Shown here: piece after piece, positions 22,037-40,000 of the stretch
Layout of the letters: each line of letters starts with the position of its first letter
Position numbering within the stretch: position 1 is the first letter of the stretch
Assembly: GCF_032051675.1 (NCBI RefSeq)
Contig: NZ_CP116968.1
Coordinates: forward strand, 744,001-808,000
From: Candidatus Nitrospira neomarina
GTDB taxonomy: Bacteria; Nitrospirota; Nitrospiria; Nitrospirales; UBA8639
Reading direction: 5' to 3'
DNA: 64,000 nt
Position numbers and translations under genes: made by a program
Notes under the pieces: generated by a model
Database searches by the model: none
The model's input: only the letters and a program-made list of their open reading frames with translations
Told to the model about the DNA's origin: nothing

Positions 22037-22041
22037 TTGAA

Positions 22042-22081
22042 CTTCTTTACATCGTATAAAGAAGTCGTGAAGCTCTTCACG
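22042..22081. promoter_or_regulatory. Two adjacent inverted repeats before the glycan island
   Basis: The first palindrome (22042-22064) has perfect eight-base arms CTTCTTTA/TAAAGAAG around seven bases. The second (22066-22081) has perfect seven-base arms CGTGAAG/CTTCACG around two bases. They lie 58 bases before the ATG of the first island gene. They could be operator sites or leader hairpins. No clear promoter elements are placed with confidence. Confidence 0.45.
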
Positions 22082-22138
22082 GTCTGTGAGGCATGTTCTG
22101 AAACCGGTGATCGAGGCAGAGATATAGTCGCAAAGAAA

Positions 22139-23068: not shown

Positions 23069-23138
23069 TGCGGCGGTCACATCCCGTGTGAACGGTCAGG
23101 CCGCGTCGGCTCTTCGTGCCAAGGAAGGCACGGAGATC

Positions 23139-24194
23139 ATGAGCTATCGGGACGCGCTGCATTGGACCATGCATGACGCCTTACAGCGGCATGATGCCGT
23201 TCTTATCCTGGGCCAGGGGGTGGATGATCACAAAGGGATTTTTGGTTCCACCACCGGATTGAGTCAAGCGTTTGGGCCGGATCGAGTGATGGATACGCCG
23301 CTTGCCGAAGAAGGCATGACAGGGGTAGCCATTGGGGCCGCGTTAAACGGGCTGTATCCGATTCAGACCCATATTCGTGCCGATTTTTCCCTGTTAGCCA
23401 TGAATCAGATCATTAATTTAGCTGCCAAATACAAATATATGTTCGGTGGCCGGTTTGACGTGCCCATGTTGATTCGCATGATCGTGGGACGAAGTTGGGG
23501 GCAAGGTGCGCAACATTCACAAAGCCTCCAATCTCTTTTTGCACATATCCCCGGGTTGCAGATTGTGATGCCCTCGAGTTCGCAATCGATTCTCGACACC
23601 TATCCCGCGGTGATTGACCGCTACCGGGGTCCCGTCATCTCATTCGAGCACCGGTTGATGTACGATCTGCAATTTTATGTGGCGTCTCCATCCACGCGAC
23701 AGGAGACCGAGCCCTTTGGGTCCCGGTTAGTGCGGCCAGGTGAGGAGGTCACCATTGTGGCCACCTCCATCATGGTGTTGGAAGCCATGAGAGCAGCAGA
23801 ACACTTGGCCCTGGTGTCCGATATTCAATGCGAGGTCATTGATTTGCATTGCGTGTCCAGTCCTGACTGGGATTTGGTCATGCACAGTGTTGAAAAAACG
23901 GGACGGTTGGTCGTGGCGGATACGAGTTGGCGGGAATATGGCGTATGCGCGGAGGTGTGCCGTGTGGTCGCCGAACGCAATCCCGGATGTTTGAAGGCAC
24001 CGGTGGTGACCTTGGGAATGCAGCCCGCTCCCTGTCCTACGGCCAAGTGTTTGGAAGATCTTTTTTATCCCGATTTGCGCCAATTAGTGGATGCGTTGGC
24101 TGTCCTCGTCACCGGGAAGAAGAGCCATGGGTTGCCCTTGCCCGATACCCAATCGATGGCAGATGTGTATAAACGGTTCAAAGGCCCTTTTTAA
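23139..24194 (+). CDS. Pyruvate dehydrogenase E1 beta-like subunit (ThDP enzyme) in sugar cluster
   Basis: A 351-residue E1-beta/transketolase-C-type subunit that partners the preceding gene. It has 'MSYRDALHWTMHDALQRHDA', 'DTPLAEEGMTGVAIGAALNG' (the acidic residue that activates ThDP) and 'FGGRFDVPMLIRMIVG'. The C-terminal domain includes 'RPGEEVTIVATSIMVLEAM'. The ATG at 23139 gives the usual family start and has AAGGAAGG and GGAG upstream; an ATG at 23058 overlapping the alpha gene would add 27 unrelated residues. With no lipoyl-carrier genes nearby, a role in carbon-branch addition to a sugar is inferred. Confidence 0.87.
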   Translation: MSYRDALHWTMHDALQRHDAVLILGQGVDDHKGIFGSTTGLSQAFGPDRVMDTPLAEEGMTGVAIGAALNGLYPIQTHIRADFSLLAMNQIINLAAKYKYMFGGRFDVPMLIRMIVGRSWGQGAQHSQSLQSLFAHIPGLQIVMPSSSQSILDTYPAVIDRYRGPVISFEHRLMYDLQFYVASPSTRQETEPFGSRLVRPGEEVTIVATSIMVLEAMRAAEHLALVSDIQCEVIDLHCVSSPDWDLVMHSVEKTGRLVVADTSWREYGVCAEVCRVVAERNPGCLKAPVVTLGMQPAPCPTAKCLEDLFYPDLRQLVDALAVLVTGKKSHGLPLPDTQSMADVYKRFKGPF

Positions 24195-24232: not shown

Positions 24233-25210
24233 ATGAAAGTGCTCATTACGGGAATTTCAGGAATGGTGGGCAGTCACTTAGCGGAGTATATCCTTGCGGA
24301 TCACCCGGACGTGGACCTTCATGGACTCATTCGATGGCGAACACCTCTTGATCATCTTGTGGCCATCAAAGATCGCATTGCCCTGCATTATGGTGATCTT
24401 CGGGACTTGAATTCCCTCATTGTGGTGATCAAAAAAATCCAACCCGATTGGATCTTTCATTTGGCGGCACAATCCTTTGTCACGACAAGTTTTGACGCGC
24501 CGGTCGACACGCTGTCCACCAATGTGCTGGGGACGACCAATTTGCTCGACGCGCTCCGCATTACCGGAGTCGATGCCAAGGTGCATGTCTGCAGTTCATC
24601 TGAAGTCTACGGACAGGTGTTGGCAGATGAAGTCCCGATCACTGAGGCGAATCCCTTTAGGCCGGCCAGCCCGTATGCGGTGTCAAAAGTCGGGGAAGAC
24701 ATGATTGCCTTTCAATATTTTTTGTCCTATGGCATTCGAACCGTCCGTACCAGGATGTTTACCCATACCGGCCCACGGCGAGGGGATGTCTTTGCAGAAA
24801 GTGCCTATGCCAAGCAAATCGTCGAGGTGGAATATGGGCTCCGGAAAAATCCGATCCGCGTCGGAAATTTGGACAGTATTCGGACTTTTGCAGATGTCCG
24901 CGATGCCGTCAGAGCTTACTGGGTGTTGATGGAAAAGTGTCCGGCCGGGGAAGTTTATAATATCGGAGGAAACCGTACGATGACACTGCGGGACATGCTC
25001 GAGATTCTCAAAGGCATGGCCACCTGTCGCATTGAGCATGTGGTGGATCCTGCATTGTTGCGACCGTCGGATGTCACCCTGCAGATTCCCGATACGTCGA
25101 AGTTCAAAGCGGCGACCGGGTGGGAACCACGCATCCCCTTTGAAGAAACCTTACAAGGTATTCTGGATTTTTATCGAAGGCGTTACCACAAGAGGAGCAA
25201 AGCTGCGTGA
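24233..25210 (+). CDS. GDP-mannose 4,6-dehydratase-like NAD-dependent enzyme
   Basis: A 325-residue extended short-chain dehydrogenase. It shows the nucleotide motif 'ITGISGMVGSHLAEYIL', 'HLAAQSFVTTSFD' and 'CSSSEVYGQV'. The catalytic YAVSK (Y-x3-K) is intact, and the 'MFTHTGPRRGDVFAESAYAK' stretch is typical of the GDP-mannose 4,6-dehydratase branch. Enzymes of this branch make 4-keto-6-deoxy sugars from GDP-mannose or GDP-heptose. The next gene encodes a heptose-kinase-like protein and overlaps it by four bases, which favours a GDP-manno-heptose substrate, though GDP-mannose remains possible. Confidence 0.86.
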   Translation: MKVLITGISGMVGSHLAEYILADHPDVDLHGLIRWRTPLDHLVAIKDRIALHYGDLRDLNSLIVVIKKIQPDWIFHLAAQSFVTTSFDAPVDTLSTNVLGTTNLLDALRITGVDAKVHVCSSSEVYGQVLADEVPITEANPFRPASPYAVSKVGEDMIAFQYFLSYGIRTVRTRMFTHTGPRRGDVFAESAYAKQIVEVEYGLRKNPIRVGNLDSIRTFADVRDAVRAYWVLMEKCPAGEVYNIGGNRTMTLRDMLEILKGMATCRIEHVVDPALLRPSDVTLQIPDTSKFKAATGWEPRIPFEETLQGILDFYRRRYHKRSKAA

Positions 25211-26328
25211 TTATCTCTCGGACTCCCTATCGGTTGTCGTTTTTCGGAGGAGGCACGGACTATCCTCAATGGTATCTTCGGGAAGAGGGCGCTGTTCTTT
25301 CCACCACAATTGACAAGTACTGCTATGTGAGTTGTCGATACCTTCCTCCATTTTTCAATATTAAACACCGGATTGTCTGGTCGCATATTGAAACGGTATC
25401 GACTATTGGAGAGATTCTCCATCCTGCCGTTCGAGAAGGCCTGCGATTTTTAGGTTTTGATGATTCTCAGGGGGTGGAAATTCAGCATCAGGGTGATCTG
25501 CCGGCCCGTTCAGGCATTGGATCCAGCTCTTCATTTTCGGTTGGTCTGGTGAAAGCGCTCACCGGGTTGAAAGGGGAGATGTTGGGGAAAATGGATCTGG
25601 CTCGCCAGGCGTTCACGTTAGAGCAAGATATCTTAAAAGAAACAGTTGGCTCCCAGGATCAAGTCGCCGCCGCCTTCGGCGGATTTAATGTTATTCGTTT
25701 TCTACGAGACGGCCAGATTCAAGTCGAACCGCTCACCTTATCATTGGGGCGATTGGCTGAACTGGAGCAAAATCTCGTACTACTGTATACCGGCACCAGT
25801 CGCTTAGGTTCAGACATTGCAAAAAGTGTCACCGAAAACTTTTCCCTCAGGTCTGCCGAACTGAAAACCATGCGTGTAATGGTGGACAGAGGGTTGGGTA
25901 TTTTGAGTGGAACGAGTTCGTTGGAGGAGTTCGGGAAATTGCTTCATGAAAGCTGGATGCTGAAGCGGGCACTTTCCCATGAGGTTTCCAATTCCACAAT
26001 TGATGAAATTTATCAAAAAGCCCTGGGCAATGGGGCGATTGGTGGAAAGCTTTCCGGGGCAGGAGGCAGTGGATTCATGTTGTTTTATGTTCCGATTTCC
26101 AAGCAGGCACATTTTCTTTCAGCGATGCATCCCTATATTTGTGTGCCGTTTTCTTTCTCACAATCAGGAAGCAGCATAATTTACTACGATGGGCCTGATA
26201 GAAGGGTATCCGGCGGATATTCTTCCGAGGGAGAAGGGGCCCATAAGGAAATGGAAAGAAGGCGGCTTCCCTCTCTCAAGACCCCTAAAAAAGCAAAAGA
26301 TAAAATTCTTGTTGGACATCGATCCTGA
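25207..26328 (+). CDS. GHMP-family kinase, heptose-7-phosphate kinase (HddA)-like
   Basis: A 373-residue sugar kinase. Motif 1 'SRTPYRLSFFGGGTDYPQWY', the ATP loop 'LPARSGIGSSSSFSVGLVKA' and motif 3 'GGKLSGAGGSGFMLFYVP' define the GHMP superfamily. 'GGGTDYP' is characteristic of the D-glycero-D-manno-heptose-7-phosphate 1-kinase/HddA group and related fucokinase-like proteins. The family core ends near 'SGSSIIYYD'; about 45 extra basic residues follow. The start (GTG 25207) overlaps the previous gene. GmhA and HddC homologues, needed for a full GDP-heptose route, are not in the window. Confidence 0.82.
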   Translation: MIISRTPYRLSFFGGGTDYPQWYLREEGAVLSTTIDKYCYVSCRYLPPFFNIKHRIVWSHIETVSTIGEILHPAVREGLRFLGFDDSQGVEIQHQGDLPARSGIGSSSSFSVGLVKALTGLKGEMLGKMDLARQAFTLEQDILKETVGSQDQVAAAFGGFNVIRFLRDGQIQVEPLTLSLGRLAELEQNLVLLYTGTSRLGSDIAKSVTENFSLRSAELKTMRVMVDRGLGILSGTSSLEEFGKLLHESWMLKRALSHEVSNSTIDEIYQKALGNGAIGGKLSGAGGSGFMLFYVPISKQAHFLSAMHPYICVPFSFSQSGSSIIYYDGPDRRVSGGYSSEGEGAHKEMERRRLPSLKTPKKAKDKILVGHRS

Positions 26329-26341
26329 GGGGCATGACCAC

Positions 26342-26902
26342 ATGCCGTCACTAACTTCCGTTCCGCCACAAATGGGTATGACCAGGGAGGTATTCGGGTG
26401 TCCGTGGTTTCGGGTACATGAAGAAGCATGGGATGACTTTTCTGAATTGGACCGTCAACCGTTTTATCGTATTGAAAGCTCAAATGGTGTCTTAGTGTTA
26501 GCCATGACCAAAAAGGAAGAGATTATTCTGGTGCGTCAATTTCGACAGGCGTTGCGCAGGAACACCATTGAATTTCCTGCTGGGAGTATTGAGGACGGTG
26601 AGTCTCCCGAAGAGGCCGCGGCGCGGGAACTACTTGAAGAAACGCGATATCGAGCCGGAACCCTTCGTCTGTTAGGGAGCGGACATATCATGATGAATCG
26701 GTACAGTGCGAGAGATTTTTTATTCATGGCTCAAGATTGCGAGGTGCTTTCCCAAACTCCCGAAGTTGCGGACCAAGACGTGCTTCTGGTTTCACCCCCG
26801 GAGTTTAAAGCCCTGGTGACATCCGGAGATTTTGAGCATATTCCTGCGTTATCCCTTTTCAGCCTTGTGGAGTGGCAATTCGGTTCGCGTTTGGTGGTAT
26901 GA
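26342..26902 (+). CDS. Nudix hydrolase (ADP-sugar pyrophosphatase-like)
   Basis: A 186-residue Nudix protein. The Nudix box starts in 'FPAGSIEDGESPEEAAAREL' and continues 'LEETRYRAG', with the catalytic REL-LEE glutamates intact; Thr replaces the usual Gly after the last Glu. Upstream, 'IRLVRQFRQ'-like and 'PAG' segments resemble ADP-ribose/ADP-sugar pyrophosphatases. It may recycle or police nucleotide sugars of the island. ATG 26342 has GAGGGG upstream; a longer frame starting inside the kinase gene is less likely. It abuts the transketolase gene. Confidence 0.82.
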   Translation: MPSLTSVPPQMGMTREVFGCPWFRVHEEAWDDFSELDRQPFYRIESSNGVLVLAMTKKEEIILVRQFRQALRRNTIEFPAGSIEDGESPEEAAARELLEETRYRAGTLRLLGSGHIMMNRYSARDFLFMAQDCEVLSQTPEVADQDVLLVSPPEFKALVTSGDFEHIPALSLFSLVEWQFGSRLVV

Positions 26903-26903
26903 C

Positions 26904-27770
26904 ATGAACGTTCAGGCCCTTGAAAACAAAGCCGCAGAGCTGAGACTTCATATTCTCAGGGCCGCGTTAAAAGCCGGGAAAGGTCATGTTCCCCCAGCAT
27001 TTTCCTGGGTGGAAATTGGTGTGGCGTTGTTTTATGGGGGACACCTGAACCTTCGGCCCCATGATCCAAAATGGGAAAACAGGGATCGATTCATTCTGAG
27101 TAAGGGGCATGGATGTTTGACCTTGTATGCGATGTTGGCCGATTTGGGGTTTTTCCCCAAAACCGAGTTAGACAATTTTTGCGGACCGGGAAGTCTCCTG
27201 GCCGGTCACCCCGATACCCAAATTCCGGGAGTGGAGGGGATTTCGGGGTCACTTGGGCATGGGTTAGGCCTGAGTGCTGGATTGGCCTTGGGAGCTAAAC
27301 TTCATTCATACCCTTGGAAAGTTGTGACGGTCATGGGGGATGGGGAATGTCAGGAGGGATCGGTATGGGAAGCGGCGATGTTTGCGAGCCATCACCAACT
27401 CCATAATCTGGTGGCGATCATTGATCGGAATGGGTTAGGTGCAACCAACTATACCGAAAAAAATGTAGCATTGGAGCCCTTCGTCAGCAAATGGAAGGCT
27501 TTTGGATGGGAGGTGGTATCCATCAATGGGCATTCATTTCAAGAAATAAATAAGGTCTTGGAAGGTTTTCGTCAAAGAAGTTCGCTGAAGCCTCTAATGA
27601 TTTTGGCTCAAACGGTGAAGGGAAAAGGGGTGTCATTTATGGAGGCCTCAGTCGATTGGCATCACAGGATTCCGAAGGGTGAGGAAGTGGAAGAGGCCAT
27701 TCGGCAATTGATGGGTACAATTTCCTCTTTCGGTTCCGCGGTCACGATGGAGTTGGCTCATGGTGCATGA
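26904..27770 (+). CDS. Transketolase N-terminal subunit (split enzyme)
   Basis: A 288-residue ThDP-binding half of transketolase. Motifs: 'LSKGHGCLTLYAMLADLGFF', 'PGVEGISGSLGHGLGLSAGL', and the ThDP motif 'MGDGECQEGSVWEAAMFASH' ending in 'IDRNGLG'. The pyrimidine-binding half is the next gene. Split transketolases are common in secondary pathways and surface-sugar clusters as well as in central metabolism. It overlaps its partner by 11 bases. A weak GGTGG precedes the ATG at 26904. The likely job here is transfer of a ketol unit in making an unusual sugar, by context only. Confidence 0.88.
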   Translation: MNVQALENKAAELRLHILRAALKAGKGHVPPAFSWVEIGVALFYGGHLNLRPHDPKWENRDRFILSKGHGCLTLYAMLADLGFFPKTELDNFCGPGSLLAGHPDTQIPGVEGISGSLGHGLGLSAGLALGAKLHSYPWKVVTVMGDGECQEGSVWEAAMFASHHQLHNLVAIIDRNGLGATNYTEKNVALEPFVSKWKAFGWEVVSINGHSFQEINKVLEGFRQRSSLKPLMILAQTVKGKGVSFMEASVDWHHRIPKGEEVEEAIRQLMGTISSFGSAVTMELAHGA

Positions 27771-28704
27771 TTTTCGTGATGCGGTCTTTGAGAGTGTTTT
27801 ACAGATTGTGGCCAAAAACCCCCGCACAATTGTCCTCACCAATGATATGGGAGCCATGGGATTAAGCCAGATTCAAGAATTGTATCCTCGGCAAGTTTTA
27901 AATGTGGGAATTAGTGAGCAAAATATGATGAGTGTGGCGGCCGGAATGGCACTTTCCGGGTATGTGGTTTTTGTCTATGGAATTGCCTCTCATATCACGA
28001 CGCGGTGTTATGAACAGTTGAAATTGGATGTGTGTGCCTTAAAGGTTCCGGTCATCCTTCTGGGAATGGGGCCCGGCTTGTCATACGGGATGGATGGACC
28101 CACCCATCATGCGACACATGACTGTGCTCTCCTCCAAACACTATCAGGCATGACCATTTATCTGCCTGCAGATGGCGTAGCCATCAAGGCCATGGTAGAG
28201 CAGGCCTACCAGAGTGGAACGCCCGCCTATATCCGGATCGATAAGGACCCCTATGAACCGATATATGCCCCCAATGAACATGATTTCAGTTTAGGACTGG
28301 AAACGATTCAACAGGGGGAATCCCTTTGTGTGGTGACCAACGGAATCATGGTTGCCAGGGTGCGAGAAGCGGCAAGAGAATTGCTGGAAGAAGGTATCGA
28401 AGTCGCTCTTGTGGATTTATATCGAATGAATCCTTGCAACGAGGCCAGACTCTGGGAAGCGTGTCGAAGCGCTCAAGCCATTGTGACGGTGGAGGAACAT
28501 GGTCGGACCGGAGGGATTGGAAGTTTGGTTGGGAGACTGTTAAGTGAGCGGGGCCACGCTATTCCTTTCTGCGGGCTTTCGCTGGGTGATGAAATGTTGT
28601 TTGGTTCCGCGAGTCGAACCTGGGCCTATGGGCAATATGGCTTGGAAAAGGAAAGCCTGAAAAACACGTTTCGGCAAATGGCCCTGTTACCCACGACGGT
28701 CTGA
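27760..28704 (+). CDS. Transketolase C-terminal subunit (split enzyme)
   Basis: A 314-residue pyrimidine-binding and C-terminal half of transketolase. Motifs: 'QVLNVGISEQNMMSVAAGMA' (activating Glu), 'GMGPGLSYGMDGPTHHATHD', and a C-terminal domain with 'VALVDLYRMNPCNEARLWEA' and 'TVEEHGRTGGIGSLVGRLLS'. It forms a heterotetramer with the preceding subunit. Its start overlaps the end of the N-terminal subunit gene, so translation is coupled. A 35-base gap and a GTG-started epimerase-like gene follow. Confidence 0.88.
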   Translation: MVHDFRDAVFESVLQIVAKNPRTIVLTNDMGAMGLSQIQELYPRQVLNVGISEQNMMSVAAGMALSGYVVFVYGIASHITTRCYEQLKLDVCALKVPVILLGMGPGLSYGMDGPTHHATHDCALLQTLSGMTIYLPADGVAIKAMVEQAYQSGTPAYIRIDKDPYEPIYAPNEHDFSLGLETIQQGESLCVVTNGIMVARVREAARELLEEGIEVALVDLYRMNPCNEARLWEACRSAQAIVTVEEHGRTGGIGSLVGRLLSERGHAIPFCGLSLGDEMLFGSASRTWAYGQYGLEKESLKNTFRQMALLPTTV

Positions 28705-28739: not shown

Positions 28740-29747
28740 GTGAAGCCGAGTTCCTCCTTTTATTTCGGAAAACGGGTTCTGGTTTCTGGAGGCACGGGGA
28801 TGATCGGTATTCCCCTTGTTCGAGCCTTGTTGGAACTGGGGGCTCAGGTGACCGTGGTGTCCCTGGAGCAGGAAGGTTATGCGAGAGCCGTATTAGGCCC
28901 TTCAGTTGCCTTCTTTAGGGGCGATCTGACTTGTTATGACACATGCGAAAAAGCTGTGAAAGGACAGGATTATGTTTTTAATTTGGTTGGAATCAAAGGG
29001 TCCGTCGGTATAGGGGTGAAACGAGCAGCCAGTTATTTTGTGCCCATGCTTCGATACCAATCCAATCTATTAGAAGCCGCATTTCGAGAAGGAGTCTCCC
29101 GGTATCTTTTTGTGAGCAGTATTTGCGCCTATCCACCAGCGACAATTCATGTGGAGGACAACGTCTGGAATGGTCTTCCAAAACAAAATGACCGGTACGC
29201 CGGAATTGCGAAACGGATCGGCGAACTTGAAGCCGAAACCTACCTGCACGAATATAATTGGGAGGCGGTCCGAGTGGTCCGGCCCTCAAATGTGTATGGT
29301 CCGCTTGATGACTTTAATCCAGCTACGGGACAGGTGATTCCGGCTCTCATTCGGAGAGTAATGGATGGAGAGTCTCCCGTTCGTATTTGGGGAGATGGAT
29401 CTGCCATACGAGATTTTATTTTTGTCGAAGATGTAGTTGAGGGATTTTTGCAGGGAATGGAGCATGCTCCGCCATGTTTTCCTATTAATTTGGGTAGTGG
29501 CGTTCCGACCACTATCAGACAATTAGCTGAAACCATTGTGGCTGAAAGTCGGGTCTCCACTGAAATTGAGTGGGATCCCTCAAAACCGTCCGGTGACCCT
29601 GTCCGGTTGTTATCGATGGAACGGGCGGAAGTCACCATTGGATTCCATCCAAAAATCTCTCTCAGAGAAGGGATTCGTCAAACTATTCACTGGTATAGAG
29701 AAAATCGGGAACTCGCCCATGAGCGGAAAAACCTTCTTAGCGCCTAA
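28740..29747 (+). CDS. Extended SDR (epimerase/dehydratase-like), paralogue 1, no canonical catalytic Tyr
   Basis: A 335-residue WcaG-type protein beginning at GTG, with AAGGA ten bases upstream. The NAD(P) motif 'VSGGTGMIGIPLVRALLELG', the serine strand 'LFVSSICAYPP' and the substrate-side 'RPSNVYGPLDDFNPATGQVI' with 'IWGDGSAIRDFIFVEDV' are intact. The usual Y-x3-K is altered: before K in 'YAGIAKRIGELEAE' the expected Tyr position is Ala, and the Tyr lies one residue further back. Two similar genes (33098 and 34636) share this. It may modify a nucleotide-linked sugar. Its end overlaps the next gene. Confidence 0.82.
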   Translation: MKPSSSFYFGKRVLVSGGTGMIGIPLVRALLELGAQVTVVSLEQEGYARAVLGPSVAFFRGDLTCYDTCEKAVKGQDYVFNLVGIKGSVGIGVKRAASYFVPMLRYQSNLLEAAFREGVSRYLFVSSICAYPPATIHVEDNVWNGLPKQNDRYAGIAKRIGELEAETYLHEYNWEAVRVVRPSNVYGPLDDFNPATGQVIPALIRRVMDGESPVRIWGDGSAIRDFIFVEDVVEGFLQGMEHAPPCFPINLGSGVPTTIRQLAETIVAESRVSTEIEWDPSKPSGDPVRLLSMERAEVTIGFHPKISLREGIRQTIHWYRENRELAHERKNLLSA

Positions 29748-30186
29748 AAACAGGAAGCGGAAAACCGAAGGACTTTCCAAGCCTCGATTTGTACCCGGGT
29801 TGGGAGATCTGGTTGATCGTTTAACCGTAGATCAACTGAAGGAAGCGTTCCATGAATCGATTCGGACAGCGGTCAGAATCGAAATCGCTGATTTGGAACA
29901 TGATATTGATGGATGGGCTGATCGACATCAGATCAAATTGTCAGGGCGGAACGTCCGGATCATCATTGTGCTTGCCCAAATCAATTATGAAATCTGGATG
30001 TGTAAAGAAGGCATGATGGCCGAACCCAAACGATACGATCAGTGGTTGAAACGGGCTCATCAATTAAATGGCATCAGAAATCAGATGAAAAATCTTCTTT
30101 TAGCCGGGGTGAAATCGGGAACCAGAGTGTGTCCGGCGAGTAATGTCTCGGTGGATGATTTAAAAGATTGGAATATCCAGCTATAA
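29719..30186 (+). CDS. Hypothetical helical protein in glycan island
   Basis: A 155-residue protein starting 29 bases before the end of the previous gene. The first 30 residues are basic and probably disordered; the rest is mainly helical ('LVDRLTVDQLKEAFHESIRT', 'RIIIVLAQINYEIWMCKEGM', 'LNGIRNQMKNLLLAGVK'). I recognise no domain and no catalytic motif. The tight overlap upstream and 15-base gap before an aldo/keto reductase suggest a true operon member, perhaps a partner protein. Confidence 0.7.
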   Translation: MSGKTFLAPKNRKRKTEGLSKPRFVPGLGDLVDRLTVDQLKEAFHESIRTAVRIEIADLEHDIDGWADRHQIKLSGRNVRIIIVLAQINYEIWMCKEGMMAEPKRYDQWLKRAHQLNGIRNQMKNLLLAGVKSGTRVCPASNVSVDDLKDWNIQL

Positions 30187-30201: not shown

Positions 30202-31317
30202 ATGCTTTTAAAAAAATTAGGCCAATCTGACATAGAAATTTCCGCTATCGGTCAAGGGACCGGGATTCATCATTCCCTGACAAACCGGGAAGCACATCGG
30301 CAACTTGAATCCACGATCCGGGCCGGAATTGATATGGGATTAACTTTTATTGATACGGCGCCTGTGTATGGTGATGGAGAGTCTGAAGCGGTAATTGGTA
30401 AGGCCTTGAAGGGGATTCGGAATCGTGCGGTGCTGGCGACAAAGGTCTCTCCTGAGAACTTATCTTCAAAAGGCATTAAATCCTCGGTTCAGGAGAGTCT
30501 CAGGCGTTTGCAAACAGACCGGATTGACCTTCTCCAAATCCACTGGCCCAATCCTCAAATCCCCATCTCGGATACACTGGTGGGTTTGGAGAAAACGGTA
30601 CAGGAGGGTTTGGTCCGAAATGTGGGAATTTGCAATTTTTCATTCAATGACACTTTAGAGATACATCACCGATTAACTCCAAACCTTCTGGCTTCTGTTC
30701 AGGTCGAATATAACTTGTTCGATCGAAGTATTGAACGGGAATTCCTCCAATATGGGGAACGAGTTGGAATCAGCATTATCGCCTATAGTCCTCTTCATTG
30801 TGGACGTTTTGTAGCAAATCGGAAGCAGTATGCTGTTCTTCAGGAGATAGCGAATAAATACCATAAAACTCCAGCTCAAATTGTTTTGAGGTGGTTAATT
30901 GGGCATCGCCCAGTTGTGGTGATTCCGAATACCACGAATTGTCAACGAATGAAGGAAAACGCGGAAAGTATAAATTTTAATCTAAAAGACGAGGATGCCC
31001 GATATCTTGAAGGACAATGTACCGGACATTTTCTAAAGATTCCTCCTAGATCCATACAAGTCGCTGATGACTCAGGACGTTCGGTCTATCGAACCCTCGA
31101 AGACGCTCTTAAAAATGCCATGAATTGCGTACCTAGTCCGCAAGAATTGGCCCAACAAATTTCGGCAGGGGATTTTTTGAAACCGGTTCGTCTTCGCCCG
31201 GCTAGTTCTTCCCATGACCGGTTTGAGCTCTTGGAAGGCCGAATCCGGTATTGGGCATGGGTCATTGCCCACGGTTTCGAAAAGCCCCTACCCGCGCTGG
31301 TGGAAGATTTCTCCTGA
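30202..31317 (+). CDS. Aldo/keto reductase fused to a ParB-like C-terminal domain
   Basis: A 371-residue protein. Residues 1-280 form an aldo/keto reductase with the catalytic tetrad D51, Y56, K81 and H114 ('FIDTAPVYGDGES', 'LATKVSP', 'LQIHWPNP') and a complete barrel through 'PVVVIPNTTNC'. Residues of about 282-370 are not part of that family: 'VPSPQELAQQI', 'FLKPVRLRP' and 'FELLEGRIRYWAWVIAHG' followed by 'PLPALVE' resemble the ParB/sulfiredoxin N-terminal fold, including its G-x-x-R box (G346, R349). An NAD(P)H-dependent sugar reduction is likely for the first part; the role of the second is unknown. A second, more divergent copy lies at 35703. Confidence 0.82.
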   Translation: MLLKKLGQSDIEISAIGQGTGIHHSLTNREAHRQLESTIRAGIDMGLTFIDTAPVYGDGESEAVIGKALKGIRNRAVLATKVSPENLSSKGIKSSVQESLRRLQTDRIDLLQIHWPNPQIPISDTLVGLEKTVQEGLVRNVGICNFSFNDTLEIHHRLTPNLLASVQVEYNLFDRSIEREFLQYGERVGISIIAYSPLHCGRFVANRKQYAVLQEIANKYHKTPAQIVLRWLIGHRPVVVIPNTTNCQRMKENAESINFNLKDEDARYLEGQCTGHFLKIPPRSIQVADDSGRSVYRTLEDALKNAMNCVPSPQELAQQISAGDFLKPVRLRPASSSHDRFELLEGRIRYWAWVIAHGFEKPLPALVEDFS

Positions 31318-31335: not shown

Positions 31336-32307
31336 ATGATTGCCACTCTTCCACTCACGCAGAATCACAAGCACCATGGGATCCTTCATCAAGAAGATTT
31401 TGAAGCCCTATTTGGGGAGGCGCCCGGAACGCTCTTTCAGGAATGTCAGGAATTGGTAGGACATCATGATTTGCGTTATGACGTTTTACAGGGGGCTTCC
31501 CGTGATCAGGTTTTGCTTCGAGTGTTGAATACCCTTGACCAGGATCTGGAAGTCGCAGGGAAGCATCGTAAGCAGCGTTGGGAAGATGGATGGGCAGAGA
31601 ATCTGATGGATTTCCAACGCACAGGATATGATTTAGCTGCATTAATCCCAAAATTTGTGAGACCCCAGGAAATCATCCGATTAAAGGGTGAGTATGTCCG
31701 ACCGGTTTCCTCTCATTTCGAAACCAGTTTTGTCGAAATTCTACGCCACTGGATGTTTAAAAAATGGTTTCATGACGTTGACCATATTTACGAGTTTGGT
31801 TGTGGAACCGGCCATAATTTAGTCGATGCAGCTTTCATGTTTCCAGGCCGTCCCTTGTATGGGTTGGATTGGTCCCAATCCTCTCAAGCGATTCTTCTCC
31901 TGTTGAGAGAAAAGCATGGATTTAATGTCGTTGGTCGGGAATTTAACATGTTGGAACCTGATGAATCGTTTGATCTGTATCCTCGGAGCGGGGTGTTCAC
32001 CGTTGGCGCCATGGAGCAATTGGGCTGTCAGTACCATGCTTTCGTGAACTATCTTCTTAGGCAACGCCCTTCTATTTGCATACACGTGGAAACCCTGTAT
32101 GAGCTCTACGATCAGAACGTCCTGTTTGATTACGTCGCAGCTAAGTATCTGGAGAAAAGAAAGTATTTGCAAGGATTACTCGGAACTTTGAAGACTTTTG
32201 AGCAGGAGGGCCGGGTGGAAATTCTTGGAACAATCCGAACTTTTGGCTCACTATACCATGATGGCTATTCTATGGTGATCTGGAAGCCGGTAGAGGAGAA
32301 GATGTGA
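31336..32307 (+). CDS. SAM-dependent methyltransferase
   Basis: A 323-residue protein. The C-terminal two thirds form a class I methyltransferase with SAM motif I 'IYEFGCGTGHNLVDAAF' and a 'YGLDWSQSSQAILLLL' strand. The N-terminal part (about 1-140) is helical and may bind the acceptor ('LQECQELVGHHDLRYD'-like region). Many such enzymes in surface-glycan clusters methylate sugars or their amino groups. A TGATG overlap couples it to a second methyltransferase gene. The methyl acceptor cannot be told from sequence. Confidence 0.8.
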   Translation: MIATLPLTQNHKHHGILHQEDFEALFGEAPGTLFQECQELVGHHDLRYDVLQGASRDQVLLRVLNTLDQDLEVAGKHRKQRWEDGWAENLMDFQRTGYDLAALIPKFVRPQEIIRLKGEYVRPVSSHFETSFVEILRHWMFKKWFHDVDHIYEFGCGTGHNLVDAAFMFPGRPLYGLDWSQSSQAILLLLREKHGFNVVGREFNMLEPDESFDLYPRSGVFTVGAMEQLGCQYHAFVNYLLRQRPSICIHVETLYELYDQNVLFDYVAAKYLEKRKYLQGLLGTLKTFEQEGRVEILGTIRTFGSLYHDGYSMVIWKPVEEKM

Positions 32308-33068
32308 TGGTGAACGCGGAGCAATTACAGATTAAAACTTATGCGAATTCGAGTGAGCAAGCGGCTCGGCAACAGATGGGGAATTTGCTCTTTCAAAATC
32401 CGATTCCCCCGGACCAATTGCTATCGAATCTTGGACTATTTCTAGAATCCAAGCATTTGGCTCGCCTGTTATTCATGGACTTCTTGTACCGTCAGATCAT
32501 TGCCGTTCAAGGTGTCGTCATGGAGTTTGGAGTACGGTGGGGGCAAAATCTTGCCTTATTTTCCGCATTGCGAGGGATCTATGAACCCTTTAACCGGCAT
32601 CGAAAAATTGTCGGCTTTGATACGTTTTCCGGATTCCCATCTATCCATGAAAAGGATGGAAAGTCCAATATGATGGTGAATGGCCAATTGGCCGTCTCTC
32701 CACACTATGCAGAAAGCCTTCAAGAGCTGCTCAGTCTTCACGAGACACTTAATCCGTTAAACCATATTAAAAAACATGAACTGTGCGTCGGAGATGTGGT
32801 GGAGGAGTTGCCTCGATATCTGGCCAGATGCCCGGAAACCATCGTGGCTATGGCCTATTTTGATTTAGATTTGTACCAACCGACGGTCAAGTGTCTTGAG
32901 CTACTTCGTCCCCGAATGACCAAGGGCACTATTCTGGGGTTTGATGAATTGAATGATCCTGATTCCCCGGGAGAGACCCTCGCCTTGATGGAGGTCTTTG
33001 GATTGAACCATTTAAAGATTCAGCGGTTTCCCTTTGCCTCTCGAGTGTCGTATGTAGTGCTGGAATAA
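32307..33068 (+). CDS. TylF/MycF-like sugar O-methyltransferase
   Basis: A 253-residue class I methyltransferase resembling the macrocin O-methyltransferase (TylF/MycF) family: 'GVVMEFGVRWGQNLALFSAL', 'KIVGFDTFSGFP', and the metal-binding acidic region 'MAYFDLDLYQPTVKCLELLR' followed by 'ILGFDELNDPDSPGE'. These enzymes add methyl groups to hydroxyls of deoxy sugars. I chose ATG 32307, which overlaps the previous stop and has AGAGGAG upstream; a GTG three bases earlier is possible. It supports a methylated-sugar end product. Confidence 0.83.
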   Translation: MVNAEQLQIKTYANSSEQAARQQMGNLLFQNPIPPDQLLSNLGLFLESKHLARLLFMDFLYRQIIAVQGVVMEFGVRWGQNLALFSALRGIYEPFNRHRKIVGFDTFSGFPSIHEKDGKSNMMVNGQLAVSPHYAESLQELLSLHETLNPLNHIKKHELCVGDVVEELPRYLARCPETIVAMAYFDLDLYQPTVKCLELLRPRMTKGTILGFDELNDPDSPGETLALMEVFGLNHLKIQRFPFASRVSYVVLE

Positions 33069-33097: not shown

Positions 33098-34126
33098 GTG
33101 CCTCAAACAATAACTGAACAATTAGGAAAAGGCATGATACCTGATTCCATTATGCAGTTCTTTTATGGGAAAAATATTGTCGTGACCGGGGGAAGCGGCT
33201 TGATCGGACGGAAAATTGTGAGTCGGTTGATCGAGGCTGGCGCCTCCGTTCGAAGTGTGTCCCTTGATGAGATCCAGGTTGAAGATACGGTGGAGTATGT
33301 GAAAGGCGATTTGTGTGATTTTGAATTTTGTAAACGTACGGTGAAGGGCATGGATTGTGTTTTTCATGTGGCGGGAATCAAGGGTTCCATTGAAGTCACG
33401 AAATCCAAGCCGGCAAGTTTTTTCGTCCCGTTGTTGATGATGAATACCAATATGTTGGAGGCCTGTCGTCTGAATAAGGTTCATCGGGTGGTCTATACCT
33501 CATCTATTGGAGCATACCCGAGTGCCGAAATTTTCAAGGAACAGGAAGGAGAAGATGAAGGGCCACCAATGGATATGTTCCCTGGATGGGCCAAACGAAT
33601 GGCTGAATTGCAAGTTCGTGCTTACCAAATACAGTACGGTCTGACGCACTATGCCGTGGTGCGTCCCTGCAATGTGTATGGACCAGGAGATAATTTCGAT
33701 CCGGACAATGCCATGGTCATTCCCACCCTCATGCGACGCATATTTTCAAAAGAAGATCCGGTCGTGATTTGGGGAGATGGCACCGCCATTCGGGATTTTG
33801 CCTTTAGTGGTGATGTGGCTGATGGAGTGATTCTTGCTTTGTACTATGGAACGGGTGGGCGGTACGTGAATCTAGGCAGTGGTATCGGCTATACCATCAA
33901 AGAATTAGTAGAAGCTCTTCAATCGGTTGTGCCGTTCCGGGCCCAATTTGATCATACGAAACCCGCCGGGTTTCCCCGGCGTGTGATGGATATTTCTTTG
34001 GCCAGGAAGCTTCTCGGGTACGACCCACAAGTGAGTCTTCAGGAGGGGTTACAGCATACATGGGATTGGTATCTGGAGCATCATGATGAATATCTTCAAC
34101 GGCAAAATTACTTCGCCGCCTCATAA
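33098..34126 (+). CDS. Extended SDR (epimerase/dehydratase-like), paralogue 2, no canonical catalytic Tyr
   Basis: A 342-residue WcaG-type protein starting at GTG with AAGGAG seven bases upstream. 'VVTGGSGLIGRKIVSRLIEA', 'VVYTSSIGAYPSAE', 'RPCNVYGPGDNFDPDNAMVI' and 'IWGDGTAIRDFAFSGDV' show the full fold. In the catalytic helix the Tyr of Y-x3-K is replaced by Pro ('DMFPGWAKRMAE'), and there is no Tyr nearby. It is clearly related to the proteins at 28740 and 34636. Substrate and reaction are unknown. It overlaps the following RmlC-like gene by 44 bases. Confidence 0.82.
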   Translation: MPQTITEQLGKGMIPDSIMQFFYGKNIVVTGGSGLIGRKIVSRLIEAGASVRSVSLDEIQVEDTVEYVKGDLCDFEFCKRTVKGMDCVFHVAGIKGSIEVTKSKPASFFVPLLMMNTNMLEACRLNKVHRVVYTSSIGAYPSAEIFKEQEGEDEGPPMDMFPGWAKRMAELQVRAYQIQYGLTHYAVVRPCNVYGPGDNFDPDNAMVIPTLMRRIFSKEDPVVIWGDGTAIRDFAFSGDVADGVILALYYGTGGRYVNLGSGIGYTIKELVEALQSVVPFRAQFDHTKPAGFPRRVMDISLARKLLGYDPQVSLQEGLQHTWDWYLEHHDEYLQRQNYFAAS

Positions 34127-34643
34127 GTTACAGATCTCTCCCTGCCGCCTGGAAGGCGTGAGATTGGTTACCCCACCGACGATTTTTGAAGATTTTCGGG
34201 GAACCTACGTTGAAACGTTTAACGAGGCCCTGTACCGGCAAGCTGGAATTGATATGCCATTCGTGCAGGACGATATCTCCGTGTCTGGCAGGTATGTGCT
34301 ACGAGGCATCCATGGAGACCAAGAGACCTGGAAGCTGGTGTCATGTTTATGGGGGAGGTTTTATTTGGTCGTCGTCAATTGGGATCCCACCTCTCCACAG
34401 TTTCAACAGTGGGAATCGTTTACGCTATCAGATGGCAATCGATGCCAAGTCTTGATTCCACCGAAGTTCGGAAACGCCCATCTGGTGCTGTCTGAGCAAG
34501 CGATCTTTCACTATAAGCAAACGACCAATTATAACCGGGAAGGGCAATTTACGGTACCTTGGAATGATCCAACTTTGGGAATCTGGTGGCCGGTTAAACA
34601 GCCGATTGTTTCCCAACGGGATGAAGGAGTGACTCATGTTTAA
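34083..34643 (+). CDS. RmlC-type 3,5-epimerase-like protein (cupin)
   Basis: A 186-residue protein of the dTDP-4-dehydrorhamnose 3,5-epimerase fold. 'FEDFRGTYVETFNEAL', 'FVQDDISVS' and 'VLRGIHGDQETWKLVSCLWG' contain the catalytic His (H77) and the following Lys; 'IPPKFGNAHLVLSE' and 'FHYKQTTNYNRE' match the later strands. It likely epimerises a 4-keto sugar made in this island. GGAG lies five bases before the tandem ATG ATG inside the end of the previous gene. It overlaps the next gene by eight bases. Confidence 0.87.
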   Translation: MMNIFNGKITSPPHKLQISPCRLEGVRLVTPPTIFEDFRGTYVETFNEALYRQAGIDMPFVQDDISVSGRYVLRGIHGDQETWKLVSCLWGRFYLVVVNWDPTSPQFQQWESFTLSDGNRCQVLIPPKFGNAHLVLSEQAIFHYKQTTNYNREGQFTVPWNDPTLGIWWPVKQPIVSQRDEGVTHV

Positions 34644-35628
34644 GGGTAGTAAAGTATTAGTGACAGGAGCGGGAGGATTTCTGGGAACCAACATGGCTAA
34701 GCGTTTGGTGGAAGAGGGGAGCTATGTACGTGGCACATTGCATACACGTAGGCCGCAATTCGAGCACCAGGATTTGGAATATGTCAAAGCCGATTTAACG
34801 AATATGGAAGAGTGTCGTCGGGTCGTAGAGGGCATGGACTATGTCTTCATGTGTGCAGCGAATACCTCAGGAGCGGCAGTCATGGCGACTCAGCCATTAG
34901 CGCACGTGACGCCGAATGTGGTGATGAACGCCCAGATGTTGGAAGCTTCCTATCAGGCAAAGGTAAAGAAGTTTCTCTTTATCAGTAGTAGCGCCGCCTA
35001 TCCACCCAGTGGGGAGCGGGCCATCTCTGAGGAGGAAATGTTTGCGGGGGATCCGTATGAGGCTTATTACAGTGTGGGATGGATGAAACGGTATGGGGAG
35101 GTGCTGTGCCGTATTTATTCCGAAAAAATTAAGGATCCGATGAGCACGGTGGTCGTGAGGCCATCTAATGTCTATGGGCCATATGACAAATTTGATTTTG
35201 AGCGTTCCCATGTGACCGCGGCACTTATCCGCAAAGTGATTGAGCGTCACGATCCTCTAGAGGTGTGGGGAACAGGTGAAGATGTTCGAGACTTAATTTT
35301 TGTAGATGATTTCATTGACGCCGTGATGTTAGCAATGGCTAGGCTAGATCGGTTCGACCCAGTGAATATTGGATATGGAAAAGGGTGTCGAGTTCGGGAT
35401 GTGTTGAATACCCTTTTGGAGGTTGATGGGTTCCAGAGTGCTCAGGTGGTCGTGAATCCAACGAAACCATCTATGATTCCAATCCGTTTGATTGATGTGG
35501 GTCAAGCCAAAGTCCTTCTCAATTTTACCGCTCAGACCGGCCTTGTTACGGGTTTAAAGAAAACCATCGCCTGGTATCGGGAAAACCACGGGGCAAAAGA
35601 ACTGCTAAGAACCGCCCACGCGGTTTAG
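34636..35628 (+). CDS. Extended SDR (epimerase/dehydratase-like), paralogue 3, no canonical catalytic Tyr
   Basis: A 330-residue protein with 'VLVTGAGGFLGTNMAKRLVE', 'LFISSSAAYPPSGE', 'RPSNVYGPYDKFDFERSHVT' and 'VWGTGEDVRDLIFVDDFIDA'. In 'EAYYSVGWMKRYGEV' the position four residues before the Lys is Val, not Tyr; two Tyr lie further back. It is the third related member after those at 28740 and 33098. AAGGAG precedes the ATG, which overlaps the rmlC-like gene. It probably works on the same nucleotide sugar series. A 74-base gap separates it from the second aldo/keto reductase. Confidence 0.82.
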   Translation: MFKGSKVLVTGAGGFLGTNMAKRLVEEGSYVRGTLHTRRPQFEHQDLEYVKADLTNMEECRRVVEGMDYVFMCAANTSGAAVMATQPLAHVTPNVVMNAQMLEASYQAKVKKFLFISSSAAYPPSGERAISEEEMFAGDPYEAYYSVGWMKRYGEVLCRIYSEKIKDPMSTVVVRPSNVYGPYDKFDFERSHVTAALIRKVIERHDPLEVWGTGEDVRDLIFVDDFIDAVMLAMARLDRFDPVNIGYGKGCRVRDVLNTLLEVDGFQSAQVVVNPTKPSMIPIRLIDVGQAKVLLNFTAQTGLVTGLKKTIAWYRENHGAKELLRTAHAV

Positions 35629-35702: not shown

Positions 35703-36854
35703 ATGCAAAGTAAACAATTCGGGGAGACAGGAGTCAGCGTTGCATCGATCGGTCAAGGTACGACAGGGATGGGGACGAAGAATCATTTCCCCAAGGAATA
35801 TATTCAGGAAAGAATTAAAGCTCTACGATTGGGAATCGACCTAGGGATGACTTTTGTGGATACAGCTAGCTTGTATGGAAATGGGTTTTCAGAAGAAGTT
35901 GTTGGACATGCTCTAAAGGGGATTCGGGACAAATGTTTTCTTTCTACTAAATTTTACCCACATGAAAAAATGAGTTCGGAAGACATCGGTTTAGCCGTAG
36001 AAGCCAGCCTAAAAAACCTTCAAACCCCGTGGGTAGACCTTTACCAAATTCACTGGCCGAATCCTCGCGTGCATTTAGAAAAAATTTTTGAGGTTTTGGA
36101 AAAATATCAGAAACGTGGAATAATTAGATTTTTTGGAATTTGTAATTTTTCCCCGCAAGAAGTTTGTGCTCTTGAGCAATCCATACCTCATATTCCGTTG
36201 TCGTCAAATGAAATTGAATTTAATTTGCAAGCCAAAAGATTGGGAAATGAATTTTTGGGGTTGAGTTCATTTAAAGGAGCCATCCTGGCCTATAGTCCCT
36301 TAAACAAGGGAAGAATTGTTGGGACTGAATTTCAAGCCGACCTTATTAGAGGCTTAGCAGAAAGATATCAAGCCACTCCTTCTCAGATAGTTTTGGCATG
36401 GATTCTCTCATTTAAGAGAGTTTTTCCAATTGTAAAGGCAGCCACTCAGAAACATGTTAAAGAAAATGCTGGGGCAATGTCTCTTGCTTTGTCCAGTGAG
36501 GACATCCAACGGGTAAATGATTCCTGGGAAGAGCATATCTATGAGGCAAAACCTGAGAGCATTAAACTTCGAGGGACTCAACAGAGAAAACCTTATCTCA
36601 CTTTAGAAGAAGCGATAGAAAATCCTCTCGATTTGGTGCCAAGTCCCGTAGCGTTAGCTGAATCAATTGTCCAGTATGACCTAAAAATGCCCATTCAAGT
36701 CGTTCCTCTTTGTGGAAATAACGATTCCTATGAATATGAAGTCGATCCCTACGATCCCTTTGATCAAATAAAAAAGTATTGGGCCTGGAAGATTGCGTTT
36801 CCGGGGAAATTGATTCCGGTTTGTATCTCGAGAACAATGCCCTTGAACTATTGA
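35703..36854 (+). CDS. Aldo/keto reductase with divergent ParB-like C-terminal domain
   Basis: A 383-residue paralogue of the protein at 30202. The reductase tetrad is D53, Y58, K83 and H117 ('FVDTASLYGNG', 'LSTKFYP', 'YQIHWPNP'). The C-terminal 90 residues align with the ParB-like tail of the first copy ('VPSPVALAESIVQ', 'MPIQVVPL', 'QIKKYWAWKIAFPGKLIPVC'), but the G-x-x-R box is changed to D-Q-I-K-K. The gene is visibly AT-richer than its neighbours: 65 of 180 bases at 36121-36300 are G or C, against 32 of 60 at 34681-34740. This suggests separate acquisition or relaxed constraint. Confidence 0.8.
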   Translation: MQSKQFGETGVSVASIGQGTTGMGTKNHFPKEYIQERIKALRLGIDLGMTFVDTASLYGNGFSEEVVGHALKGIRDKCFLSTKFYPHEKMSSEDIGLAVEASLKNLQTPWVDLYQIHWPNPRVHLEKIFEVLEKYQKRGIIRFFGICNFSPQEVCALEQSIPHIPLSSNEIEFNLQAKRLGNEFLGLSSFKGAILAYSPLNKGRIVGTEFQADLIRGLAERYQATPSQIVLAWILSFKRVFPIVKAATQKHVKENAGAMSLALSSEDIQRVNDSWEEHIYEAKPESIKLRGTQQRKPYLTLEEAIENPLDLVPSPVALAESIVQYDLKMPIQVVPLCGNNDSYEYEVDPYDPFDQIKKYWAWKIAFPGKLIPVCISRTMPLNY

Positions 36855-37015: not shown

Positions 37016-40000
37016 ATGCACACATTTCCTGAAAGTTCCTTGGCACATAAATGGCTTGATGGCCTTTCGGGTTTGGAAATCGGTGCTTCTACCCACAATC
37101 CCTATGGATTGAAAACCCGAAATGTTGGATTAGGTGGGGATGGGTATGATCAAGAACAATTATCCTTGGCCGGAGAGGTTGCTCCGATTGATATCTGTGC
37201 TGAGGCCAGTGCGATACCCCTTTCCAGTGAAACAGAAGATTTCATCTTAGCGTCCCACGTCATAGAGCATTGTCCGGATGTTATTAAGACTTTACTGGAG
37301 TGGTATCGAATTGTGAAACCCGATGGGTACCTTTTTTTGGTGGTCCCACATCGGGATGCGGCCCCTTCTGACCGAGGAAAGCCTCTTACCGAATGGGAGC
37401 ATGTGGTTCAGGATTATATGAGACACGCTACACCAGAATCGGAGCCGGAAGGAAAAAGTTTCCTGTACTGTCATTATCATGTCTTTTCCCCCTCTTCCAT
37501 GAAAAACTTTATTTCTAGAATTTTTGGTTGTCGTCTGGCGCTGATGGAAGAACAAGATCCGGATGATAAGGTGGGGAACGGGTTTTCATTAGTATATCGA
37601 AAGACCAAGTCAATTCAACAAGCATTTCCATGGGGATTTCAGGGAGGAGGGTATTCCATAAATGTTTCAAGGCCGGCAGATTTTTATCAAAACAAAAAGG
37701 AAGAGGAAATGATTCCTCTCATGAAACCCCGTCAGGTAACTCTTTCTTGTAGCCAAAAAGGGGAATTTCCGGTAGAGGACCTGGGGCGTTCTCAAGAAAA
37801 AATGGGGAAATTCAAAGGTATGCTCGTTTCTGTCATTGTGGCCGCTTATAACTCAGAACGATTTATGCGGGGGTTGTTGGAAAATTTAGAAGCACAGACC
37901 ATCGCGGACCAGATGGAAATTATTATCGTGGAAACCGGCTCAGAAACCCAGGAAATCGATATTGTCCGAGAGTTTCAACAACGTTTTGCAAATATTACTT
38001 ATGTCAGGACATCTGAACGAATTAGTGCTGTTGCGGCAACAAATCAAGGCGTTCGCATGGCAAAGGGGATTTACATTACTCTACTGCCCACAGATGACCG
38101 GTTGCGTTGTGATGCCTTGGAAGTGATGGCCCGTGAACTTGAACAACATCCAGAATCCGGAACGGTATATGCCGATGTGTTTATGACCCAGTTTGAGAAC
38201 CAGACATTTCATCGTTTCATACGAGGCGGCTATTCCATTCGTTTCGATTTTAGTCCTGATATGATGTTGACCGGCTATCCTATGGGACCTTTGTTCATGT
38301 GGAGGAAAAAGGTTCACGAAGACGTTGGATTATTTGACGAAAAATTTCTTTGTGCCGCCGATTATGACTTCCATTGCCGTGTCGCGCGAAAGTATCCCAT
38401 GCGTCATATCTCGGAGTTTCTTGGCTTATATTTGCAAAATCCAAAAGGGGTGGTGAATTCCAATCCCCAAATTAGCCAGGCAGAATTTCGAGCTATTATT
38501 CAGGCGAACCGGTCGTATTTTCCAGCACCTATTCAGAAACCCCTGACCATCCTTCAATACGAGAAACCCGTCTTCCCTGGTCAATATGTCAATATTGGTA
38601 TGGTGACATTTAATCGGCTGGAATTTACGAAGCAGGCTATCGCTGCGCTTTTCCAGCATACCTGTTTCCCCCATGTCATCACGGTTGTGGATAACGGAAG
38701 TACAGACGGCACGCCACAGTATTTGCAAACGCTTCTCAATCAGGGATTTATTACCAATCTGATTTTGTTGCCAGATAATGTTGGAATTGCCAAGGCTTCA
38801 AATTTGGCATGGAGTCAGGAGCCTGAAGCTGAATATTACCTCAAGCTGGACAATGACATTGTTATCCAAAAGCCCGGCTGGTTATCCAGAATGGTTGAGG
38901 TCATCGACCGTATCCCTGAATTGGGCGCTATTGCCTATAACTTCGAACAAGAGAGCTATCCCGTCCGTGAGATTCGAGGCTTGTCTGTTCGGCCCAAAAT
39001 TGGAAATTTAAACGGGGCTTGTACCCTTATCCCCAAAAGAACTCATCAAACATTGGGATTTTGGTGTGAGGATTATGGATTGTACGGGGAAGAGGATGCG
39101 GATTATGGGATGAGAATTCATTTGCAGGGTTTGCAAAATGCCTATATGGAGGATGATAAAGTGGGATTGCATCTACCTGCCGGAAGGGCAGCCCACATCG
39201 ACGCACAGACGTTTAAGGCCACTGATGGAATTGAAGAAGAGACCCATGCGGAGTACCGGGCATTCAAAGATGAATGGAGGCGAAGAAATGTTCAGGACAT
39301 CGCGAAAAAAAATTGGGAGGATTACCAGACAGGTGTGAAATCGCTGTTTTGTTCGTCTCCCTTCGTGAAGGGATTCCATAAAGATCGAGATCAACCTGAA
39401 GGATCTGACGTACTCACTCGCCGACGGATTCAGACTGACGAAATACCGAAGGAAGCGATGCTTGAAAGGCCACGAGATTCTTCTCCAAAGCGCTGGCGAA
39501 CCGTTTCTGTCATTGCGTCTGATTATATCTGCGGTCGTATTCGACTCCTTCAACCACTCCTGGCTGGTGAAGGGATATGGGAAAAAGGCTCCATTGTTGC
39601 TGATGCCAACATCTATTTAAATGACACCATATTTCCCCCGATGGGGTTGGGACAGGTTTGGGCTATTCAGCGTAATTGTAGACTGTCAGAAGAAACTTTA
39701 AAGGAAGCGCAAAACCAAGGTACTCGAATTGTTTACGACTGTGACGATTTGCTCTGGAAAATTCCTCTCGATAATCCAAATCATGGATACTTTACTCCTG
39801 AATATCTTCAAAGAATGTTCGGTCTTATGTATACGGCGGATTGTGTGACGGTGTCTACGGAACCTATTCAAACCGATTTGAAGCAACGAGGAATCGAATC
39901 GACTGTTCTTCTGAATTGCTTGTTGCGTCAGGAATGGGAGGATTTCAACCCTCGACGTCGAGCGGGTTCCCGTCCTCGAGTTGGATGGGCAGGACAAGCG

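Follow-up and report, generated by a model that had tools for sequence, protein, structure and literature searches.

An aldo/keto reductase fused to a ParB/sulfiredoxin-fold domain in a conserved sugar-nucleotide gene neighborhood of Candidatus Nitrospira neomarina and other bacteria

Results

A sugar gene cluster with two fused reductases

We analyzed a 64,000-nucleotide stretch of the Candidatus Nitrospira neomarina genome (termed the window herein; all coordinates without a locus name are window positions). It holds a cluster of sugar-nucleotide genes, two of which encode an aldo/keto reductase (AKR) that continues into a ParB/sulfiredoxin (Srx)-fold domain, termed AKR-ParB herein (Table 1). 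The open reading frame of the first, 371 residues in length, matches 30202-31317 on the forward strand exactly. A simple ORF picker supplied the gene calls for the neighborhood, and BLAST was used to compare them.

Table 1. Features of the AKR-ParB cluster in the window
Feature	Position	Strand	Remarks
Pyruvate-dehydrogenase E1 alpha-like and E1 beta-like	22037-23068 and 23058-24194	+	whole or part in 9 loci
GDP-heptose 4,6-dehydratase-like	24233-25210	+	
Heptose-phosphate kinase-like GHMP kinase, HddA-like	25207-26328	+	
Split transketolase, N part and C part	26832-27770 and 27760-28704	+	Pfam E 1.4e-39 and 7.7e-28/3.5e-17
NAD-dependent epimerase/dehydratase 1	28740-29747	+	
Small C8-family protein	29719-30186	+	about 155 aa from ATG 29719; directly 5' of AKR-ParB
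AKR-ParB, A type	30202-31317	+	371 aa; AKR residues 1-~273, ParB/Srx-fold domain ~281-371
ParB/sulfiredoxin-fold domain of AKR-ParB	31030-31314	+	residues 277-371; P-motif-like G346-R-I-R349, then invariant Y-W-A-W
SAM-methyltransferase-like protein, uncharacterized	31336-32307	+	conserved in cluster, many loci; distinct N-terminal region
CalS11-like sugar-nucleotide O-methyltransferase	32304-33068	+	phmmer to CalS11 E 8e-69
NAD-dependent epimerase/dehydratase 2	33098-34126	+	
RmlC-type nucleotide-sugar 3,5-epimerase homologue	34083-34643	+	Pfam E 4.7e-45
NAD-dependent epimerase/dehydratase 3	34636-35628	+	
AKR-ParB paralogue, B type	35703-36854	+	383 aa; 36% identical along its length; AKR tetrad kept

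The cluster is flanked by genes for FliW (20470-20946) and flagellin (47896-48723). FlgI, FlgK, FliD, and a flagellin-like protein are also encoded close by, and 3' of the cluster come a gene for a large multi-domain glycosyltransferase and two that resemble GT9 heptosyltransferase genes. At 37016-42217, a 1733-residue protein combines a methyltransferase with TPR repeats and several glycosyltransferase domains of family 2. The gene content of the cluster recalls a GDP-heptose pathway, and the region 20470-48723 as a whole may be an island for the glycosylation of flagellin with heptose-type sugars.

The reductase domain

The Pfam profile for aldo/keto reductases (Aldo_ket_red, PF00248) matched residues 17-270 of AKR-ParB with 201 bits (cut-off 24; E = 2.8e-59), and the catalytic tetrad (D51, Y56, K81, and H114) is unchanged in 21/21 A-type copies, which bears out a first-pass annotation that had recognized a complete AKR with all four catalytic residues. 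A whole-chain AlphaFold2 model based on a 22-sequence alignment reached a mean pLDDT of 91.4 and a pTM of 0.89, the latter suggesting a fixed relative placement of the two domains.

In a structure search, residues 1-273 adopted the TIM-barrel AKR fold and matched Thermotoga Tm1743 (5dan) with Z = 37.5 over 269 residues at 35% identity. Tm1743 and related single-domain AKRs (5dan, 6kik) are the nearest solved structures to the barrel, but Tm1743 stops at about residue 274 without a second domain, whereas AKR-ParB has a ParB-fold tail. The mithramycin side-chain ketoreductase MtmW was also among the top matches of the barrel (Z = 35.6). In the AKR family, the region after the last AKR helix leads to a substrate-covering tail, and it is after this helix that the modeled AKR-ParB chain exits the barrel. 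Alignments with the AKRs 4pmj, 4wgh, 6cia, 3up8, and 1ynp stop at model residues 327-329, end points that hint weakly that the ParB domain may sit where the C-terminal tails of those solved enzymes lie. No solved AKR with a ParB-fold tail was among the matches listed by Foldseek and a PDB sequence search.

The ParB/sulfiredoxin-fold tail

The C-terminal domain, modeled in isolation with AlphaFold (pLDDT 90, pTM 0.84), matched Noc in Foldseek (E = 1.7e-5) and gave VIA Z scores of 10.9 to Noc, 10.4 to ParB, 9.4 to sulfiredoxin, and 8.5 to SerK. The best 31 structure matches all belonged to the ParB/Srx superfamily (ParB, Noc, KorB, PadC, Srx, SerK and its uncharacterized homologue, and SbnI), and above Z 2.1 the clearly unrelated structures were limited to two weak entries, plasmid fertility-inhibition and Atu1540, at Z 5-6. 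By its predicted structure, then, the domain has the ParB/Srx fold, a point that we regard as settled. The first-pass annotation had likened the last 90 or so residues to this fold and had named a departure from it in a predicted structure as the finding that would overturn the idea; AlphaFold and the structure search returned the fold itself, and each of the named pieces could be located in the model, namely the ELAQQI helix (residues 313-321), the LKPVRLRP strand (329-333), and G346-x-x-R349 within EGRIRYWAW.

Sequence searches pointed the same way with less force. A single-sequence search yielded weak ParB signals (TIGR03734, E = 7.7e-4; TIGR00180, E = 0.03), and a 27-sequence profile of the domain had only five matches in the PDB, all to the ParB family (Noc, Spo0J, ParB, KorB, and ParB; E = 0.024-0.93), which taken alone would be only suggestive. 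Seventeen of the 27 domain members match ParB_N (PF02195) at E <= 1, the best at 2e-4; AKR-ParB itself scores 14.2 bits, under the gathering score of 26.3, a shortfall that concerns the threshold of the curated profile and not the fold.

The GxxR phosphate motif reads GRIR in 21/21 full-length A-type copies, across phyla, and is followed by an unusual invariant YWAW, while the residue preceding the GRIR glycine varies (E, G, or N). The first-pass annotation had also named a missing nucleotide-binding pocket as a finding that would overturn its idea; the pocket was judged by the GxxR motif, which is retained. The site has neither the catalytic glutamate found in ParB (GERR) nor the catalytic cysteine found in sulfiredoxin (GCHR); the domain is therefore more probably a binder than an NTPase or kinase. 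AKR-ParB also has no helix-turn-helix, dimerization, or DNA-binding part, and the chain stops at residue 371, on the last strand of the fold.

Distribution and paralogues

The first-pass annotation had proposed looking for the same domain pair in other genomes. When genome contigs were scanned once with the domain alignment, 20 further loci emerged, in addition to the duplicate inside the window, and all 20 carry the AKR fusion where upstream sequence is present (L026 is cut by a contig end). The hosts are Nitrospirales, Alphaproteobacteria, Desulfuromonadales and other Deltaproteobacteria, Heliobacterium mobile (A-type copy at L028 7182-8303), Chloroflexi, Planctomycetes, Omnitrophota, and the CPR bacteria Levybacteria and Nealsonbacteria, so that the pair spans at least 8 phylum-level groups with an invariant GRIRYWAW motif. 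Within these 20 genomes, profile matches to the ParB-fold domain were confined to the AKR-ParB loci.

Occurrence is sporadic: high-confidence matches were found in 2/296 sampled genomes of the window's phylum (the window's own included) and in 1/299 sampled genomes of the Heliobacterium phylum. Weaker matches in the window's phylum (E = 8e-4 to 8e-3) were set aside as chance, the two that were opened overlapping lytic-transglycosylase/LysM-like genes. Plasmids, searched with the domain alone, gave just two weak matches, one of them a PRTRC ParB protein.

This genome contains no other convincing copy of the ParB-fold domain beyond the A-type gene and its B-type paralogue, in which GxxR is replaced by QIKK and YWAW is kept. 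A and B types occur together in the window and in L020, L023, L024, L028, and L029. Across B-type copies GxxR is lost or altered in most, and YWAW is kept in most. At L020 12695-13800, either a frame shift splits the B-type gene before its ParB-fold part or the assembly is in error. In an AKR tree with few outgroups, most fused AKRs cluster together and the two types are not firmly separated; that A and B go back to an ancient duplication is therefore no more than suggested.

A conserved gene neighborhood

Listing the gene neighbors, as the first-pass annotation had advised, revealed that a sugar-nucleotide gene set recurs beside AKR-ParB. A CalS11 homologue lies 3' of AKR-ParB in 19/21 loci; in 13 of these the two genes are -11 to +31 bases apart, and in the other six one gene lies between them. 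CalS11, a close homologue of this neighbor and not of AKR-ParB itself, is a TDP-rhamnose 3'-O-methyltransferase that acts at the sugar-nucleotide stage (PMC4760980). In 19/20 informative loci, counting L033 and L030, part of a split transketolase is encoded within the locus or elsewhere on its contig; the remaining one, L027, has an E1 alpha/beta pair instead. A thiamine-diphosphate two-carbon transferase (i.e., a split transketolase or an E1 pair) is therefore found near AKR-ParB in 20/20 informative loci. With related lineages collapsed and a generous three such genes per 3000 assumed, the chance of this association is ~1e-18, a rough figure that leaves aside the tendency of sugar genes to cluster in general.

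The RmlC-type epimerase is likewise common among AKR-ParB loci, and PDB matches of the copy in the window include GDP-4-keto-heptose epimerases. On a single metagenome contig from Omnitrophota (L022 7161-8816), AKR-ParB and an RmlC-type epimerase share one frame of 570 aa; two NDP-hexose 2,3-dehydratase genes lie about 40 kb from the fusion on that contig.

Two further families accompany these enzymes. The methyltransferase-like protein immediately downstream of AKR-ParB matched no NCBIfam model. The C8 family comprises probably helical proteins of about 140-155 aa with an 'AHQLNGIRN..KN' motif, found across phyla and often just upstream of AKR-ParB; relatives lie at L019 6707, L021 11148, L023 5651, L024 5655, L025 6713, L028 3626, L029 4499, and L034 5481, and the Heliobacterium copy had no convincing Pfam or NCBIfam match. 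B12-binding radical SAM proteins, possible C-methylases of the sugar, are encoded in several clusters (L026 1366 and 3272, L028 4133, L029 10140 and 11624, and L034 3013), and a carbamoyltransferase-like protein is encoded at L029 2725.

Discussion

The closest functional precedent for this gene set is paulomycin biosynthesis, in which the AKR Pau7 reduces an acetyl branch to hydroxyethyl and the E1 alpha/beta-like Pau11/Pau12 are the proposed adders of the two-carbon branch (PMC4753412, PMC4425429, PMC4802897); that cluster also holds a CalS11 homologue and a 3,5-epimerase (PMC4425429). Like AKR-ParB, Pau7 (AKR5I, an octose ketoreductase) has the full AKR tetrad and is encoded with thiamine-diphosphate two-carbon enzymes, a CalS11 homologue, and a 3,5-epimerase. 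Because Pau11/Pau12, Pau7, the CalS11 homologue, and the epimerase each have a counterpart here, we propose that AKR-ParB would reduce the carbonyl of a branch. The two systems also differ: Pau7 has 272 aa and no ParB-fold domain, it acts on the assembled antibiotic (PMC4753412), and the paulomycin pathway as described includes no split transketolase, unlike the AKR-ParB loci.

Our preferred reading, to which we give a little under even odds (roughly 0.45), is that AKR-ParB is an NAD(P)H ketoreductase of a nucleotide-activated sugar pathway whose ParB fold grips the nucleotide of the substrate. In the mechanism that we envisage, the split transketolase, or in some loci the E1 alpha/beta pair, would attach a two-carbon branch to a nucleotide-linked keto-sugar, a step suggested by chemistry and precedent. 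The AKR barrel would then reduce a carbonyl, most likely the keto group of the branch. The ParB/Srx fold, rigid against the barrel, would bind nucleotide through GRIR and would most likely hold the sugar-nucleotide by its nucleotide diphosphate, which would bring the sugar to the active site of the barrel. We infer that the substrate is nucleotide-linked, that its branch carbonyl is the group reduced, and that its nucleotide is what the ParB fold binds. The first-pass annotation had leaned away from DNA as the ligand and toward a nucleotide or a nucleotide sugar, a view that sits well with conserved sugar-nucleotide enzymes as neighbors and with a chain that has no DNA-binding part. Two observations speak against the anchor. 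GxxR is wholly or partially lost in B-type copies, and nucleotide binding is therefore not essential to every family member; and since Pau7, which has no ParB domain, acts on the assembled antibiotic, the reduction as such needs no nucleotide anchor.

The other roles that the domain might play differ mainly in what they make of the GRIR motif. It could be structural, a ParB fold without nucleotide binding that serves dimerization, the pairing of A and B types, or docking of the adjacent methyltransferase. YWAW is kept more widely than GxxR, including in most B-type copies, as would be expected of a packing surface; A-B pairs recur in the loci listed above, AKR-ParB is tightly coupled to the methyltransferase gene, and the loss of GxxR favors such a role at least in the B type. 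A pure scaffold, however, would not need the GRIR that A-type copies from all of these phyla keep without exception, and we find this role doubtful. That same invariance, over all 21 full-length A-type copies, would suit an allosteric sensor in which free CTP, ATP, GTP, or GDP, bound by the fold, acts as a switch for the reductase and so couples sugar synthesis to the availability of nucleotides; ParB-fold fusions to an acetyltransferase and to SAM methyltransferases are reported to bind GTP and ATP, respectively (PMC12704722). The residue after the glycine is R and not the catalytic E of the canonical GERR, however, so that hydrolysis-driven switching is improbable, and the chain stops before the second ParB phosphate motif (Box III); we consider a sensor unlikely.

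Readings that change the chemistry fare worse. The order reductase, CalS11-like gene, epimerase recalls pau42-pau43-pau44 (PMC4425429), and the AKR could accordingly be an NDP-4-keto-hexose 2,3-(enoyl) reductase of a 2-deoxysugar pathway, like paulomycin Pau42. A PF03559 search of the 21 AKR-ParB genomes disfavors this, the NDP-hexose 2,3-dehydratase that such a pathway requires being missing from 20 of them, this one included, and we judge it very unlikely. Sulfiredoxin and SerK, which are compact enzymes with the ParB fold, use ATP or ADP, and the fold matches (Z = 9.4 and 8.5, respectively) might suggest that the C-terminal domain is itself catalytic, as a SerK-like small-molecule kinase or in sulfiredoxin-like phosphoryl transfer. 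Those proteins are free-standing or differently fused, the catalytic residues of Srx are not conserved in AKR-ParB, its GCHR cysteine among them, and the residue ahead of the glycine varies among E, G, and N; such catalysis strikes us as highly improbable. A true ParB-type DNA-binding protein has only the fold in its favor. The domain shares that fold with the N-terminal domain of Noc/ParB (7ol9, 6t1f) over 80 residues (Z = 10.4-10.9), together with a GxxR P motif, but unlike Noc/ParB it has no Box III phosphate motif, catalytic E, HTH, or parS role. Because no helix-turn-helix follows the ParB fold, AKR-ParB is not a partition protein, and with a chain that ends with the ParB N-terminal fold, no dimerization domain, and sugar enzymes for neighbors, its domain content makes DNA binding scarcely credible.

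Returning to the ketoreductase with a nucleotide-gripping domain, we suggest, more tentatively than for the enzyme as a whole, that a ParB-CTPase-type fold has been reused as a substrate handle, which would hold the sugar-nucleotide while the fused reductase works on the two-carbon branch. The ParB-CTPase fold has recently been recognized as a versatile nucleotide-binding module. As presented by Kaljevic et al. 2025, in other fusions it binds CTP, ATP, or GTP through the same GxxR arginine (PMC12704722), and the enzymes to which it is joined there as an NTP binder are an acetyltransferase and methyltransferases; the main text of that report names no reductase or sugar enzyme among the fusions (PMC12704722). 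Its survey used PF02195 (PMC12704722), a Pfam model whose threshold the AKR-ParB domain does not reach, which puts the fusion out of sight of ParB-fold surveys made with it. The open-access literature yielded no paper that unites the two domains, apart from one toxin survey that names both in unrelated contexts, in keeping with the first-pass remark that no characterized enzyme is known to have this arrangement. Each fold is familiar by itself; what appears to be new is their combination and the conserved setting in which it occurs.

A natural guess is that the product of the cluster ends up on flagellin in this genome; the other loci, such as those of CPR bacteria and L035 with its ABC exporter-like genes, may differ in this respect. 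The conserved gene set points to a widespread, uncharacterized route to branched, methylated sugars that extends from nitrifiers to CPR. If the proposed role is true, AKR-ParB would represent a cross-phylum family of branched nucleotide-sugar enzymes in bacteria, and the substrate handle would join DNA clamps and small kinases among the uses of the fold. Should the fold indeed anchor a nucleotide sugar, a metabolic role would be added to a fold known from chromosome segregation.
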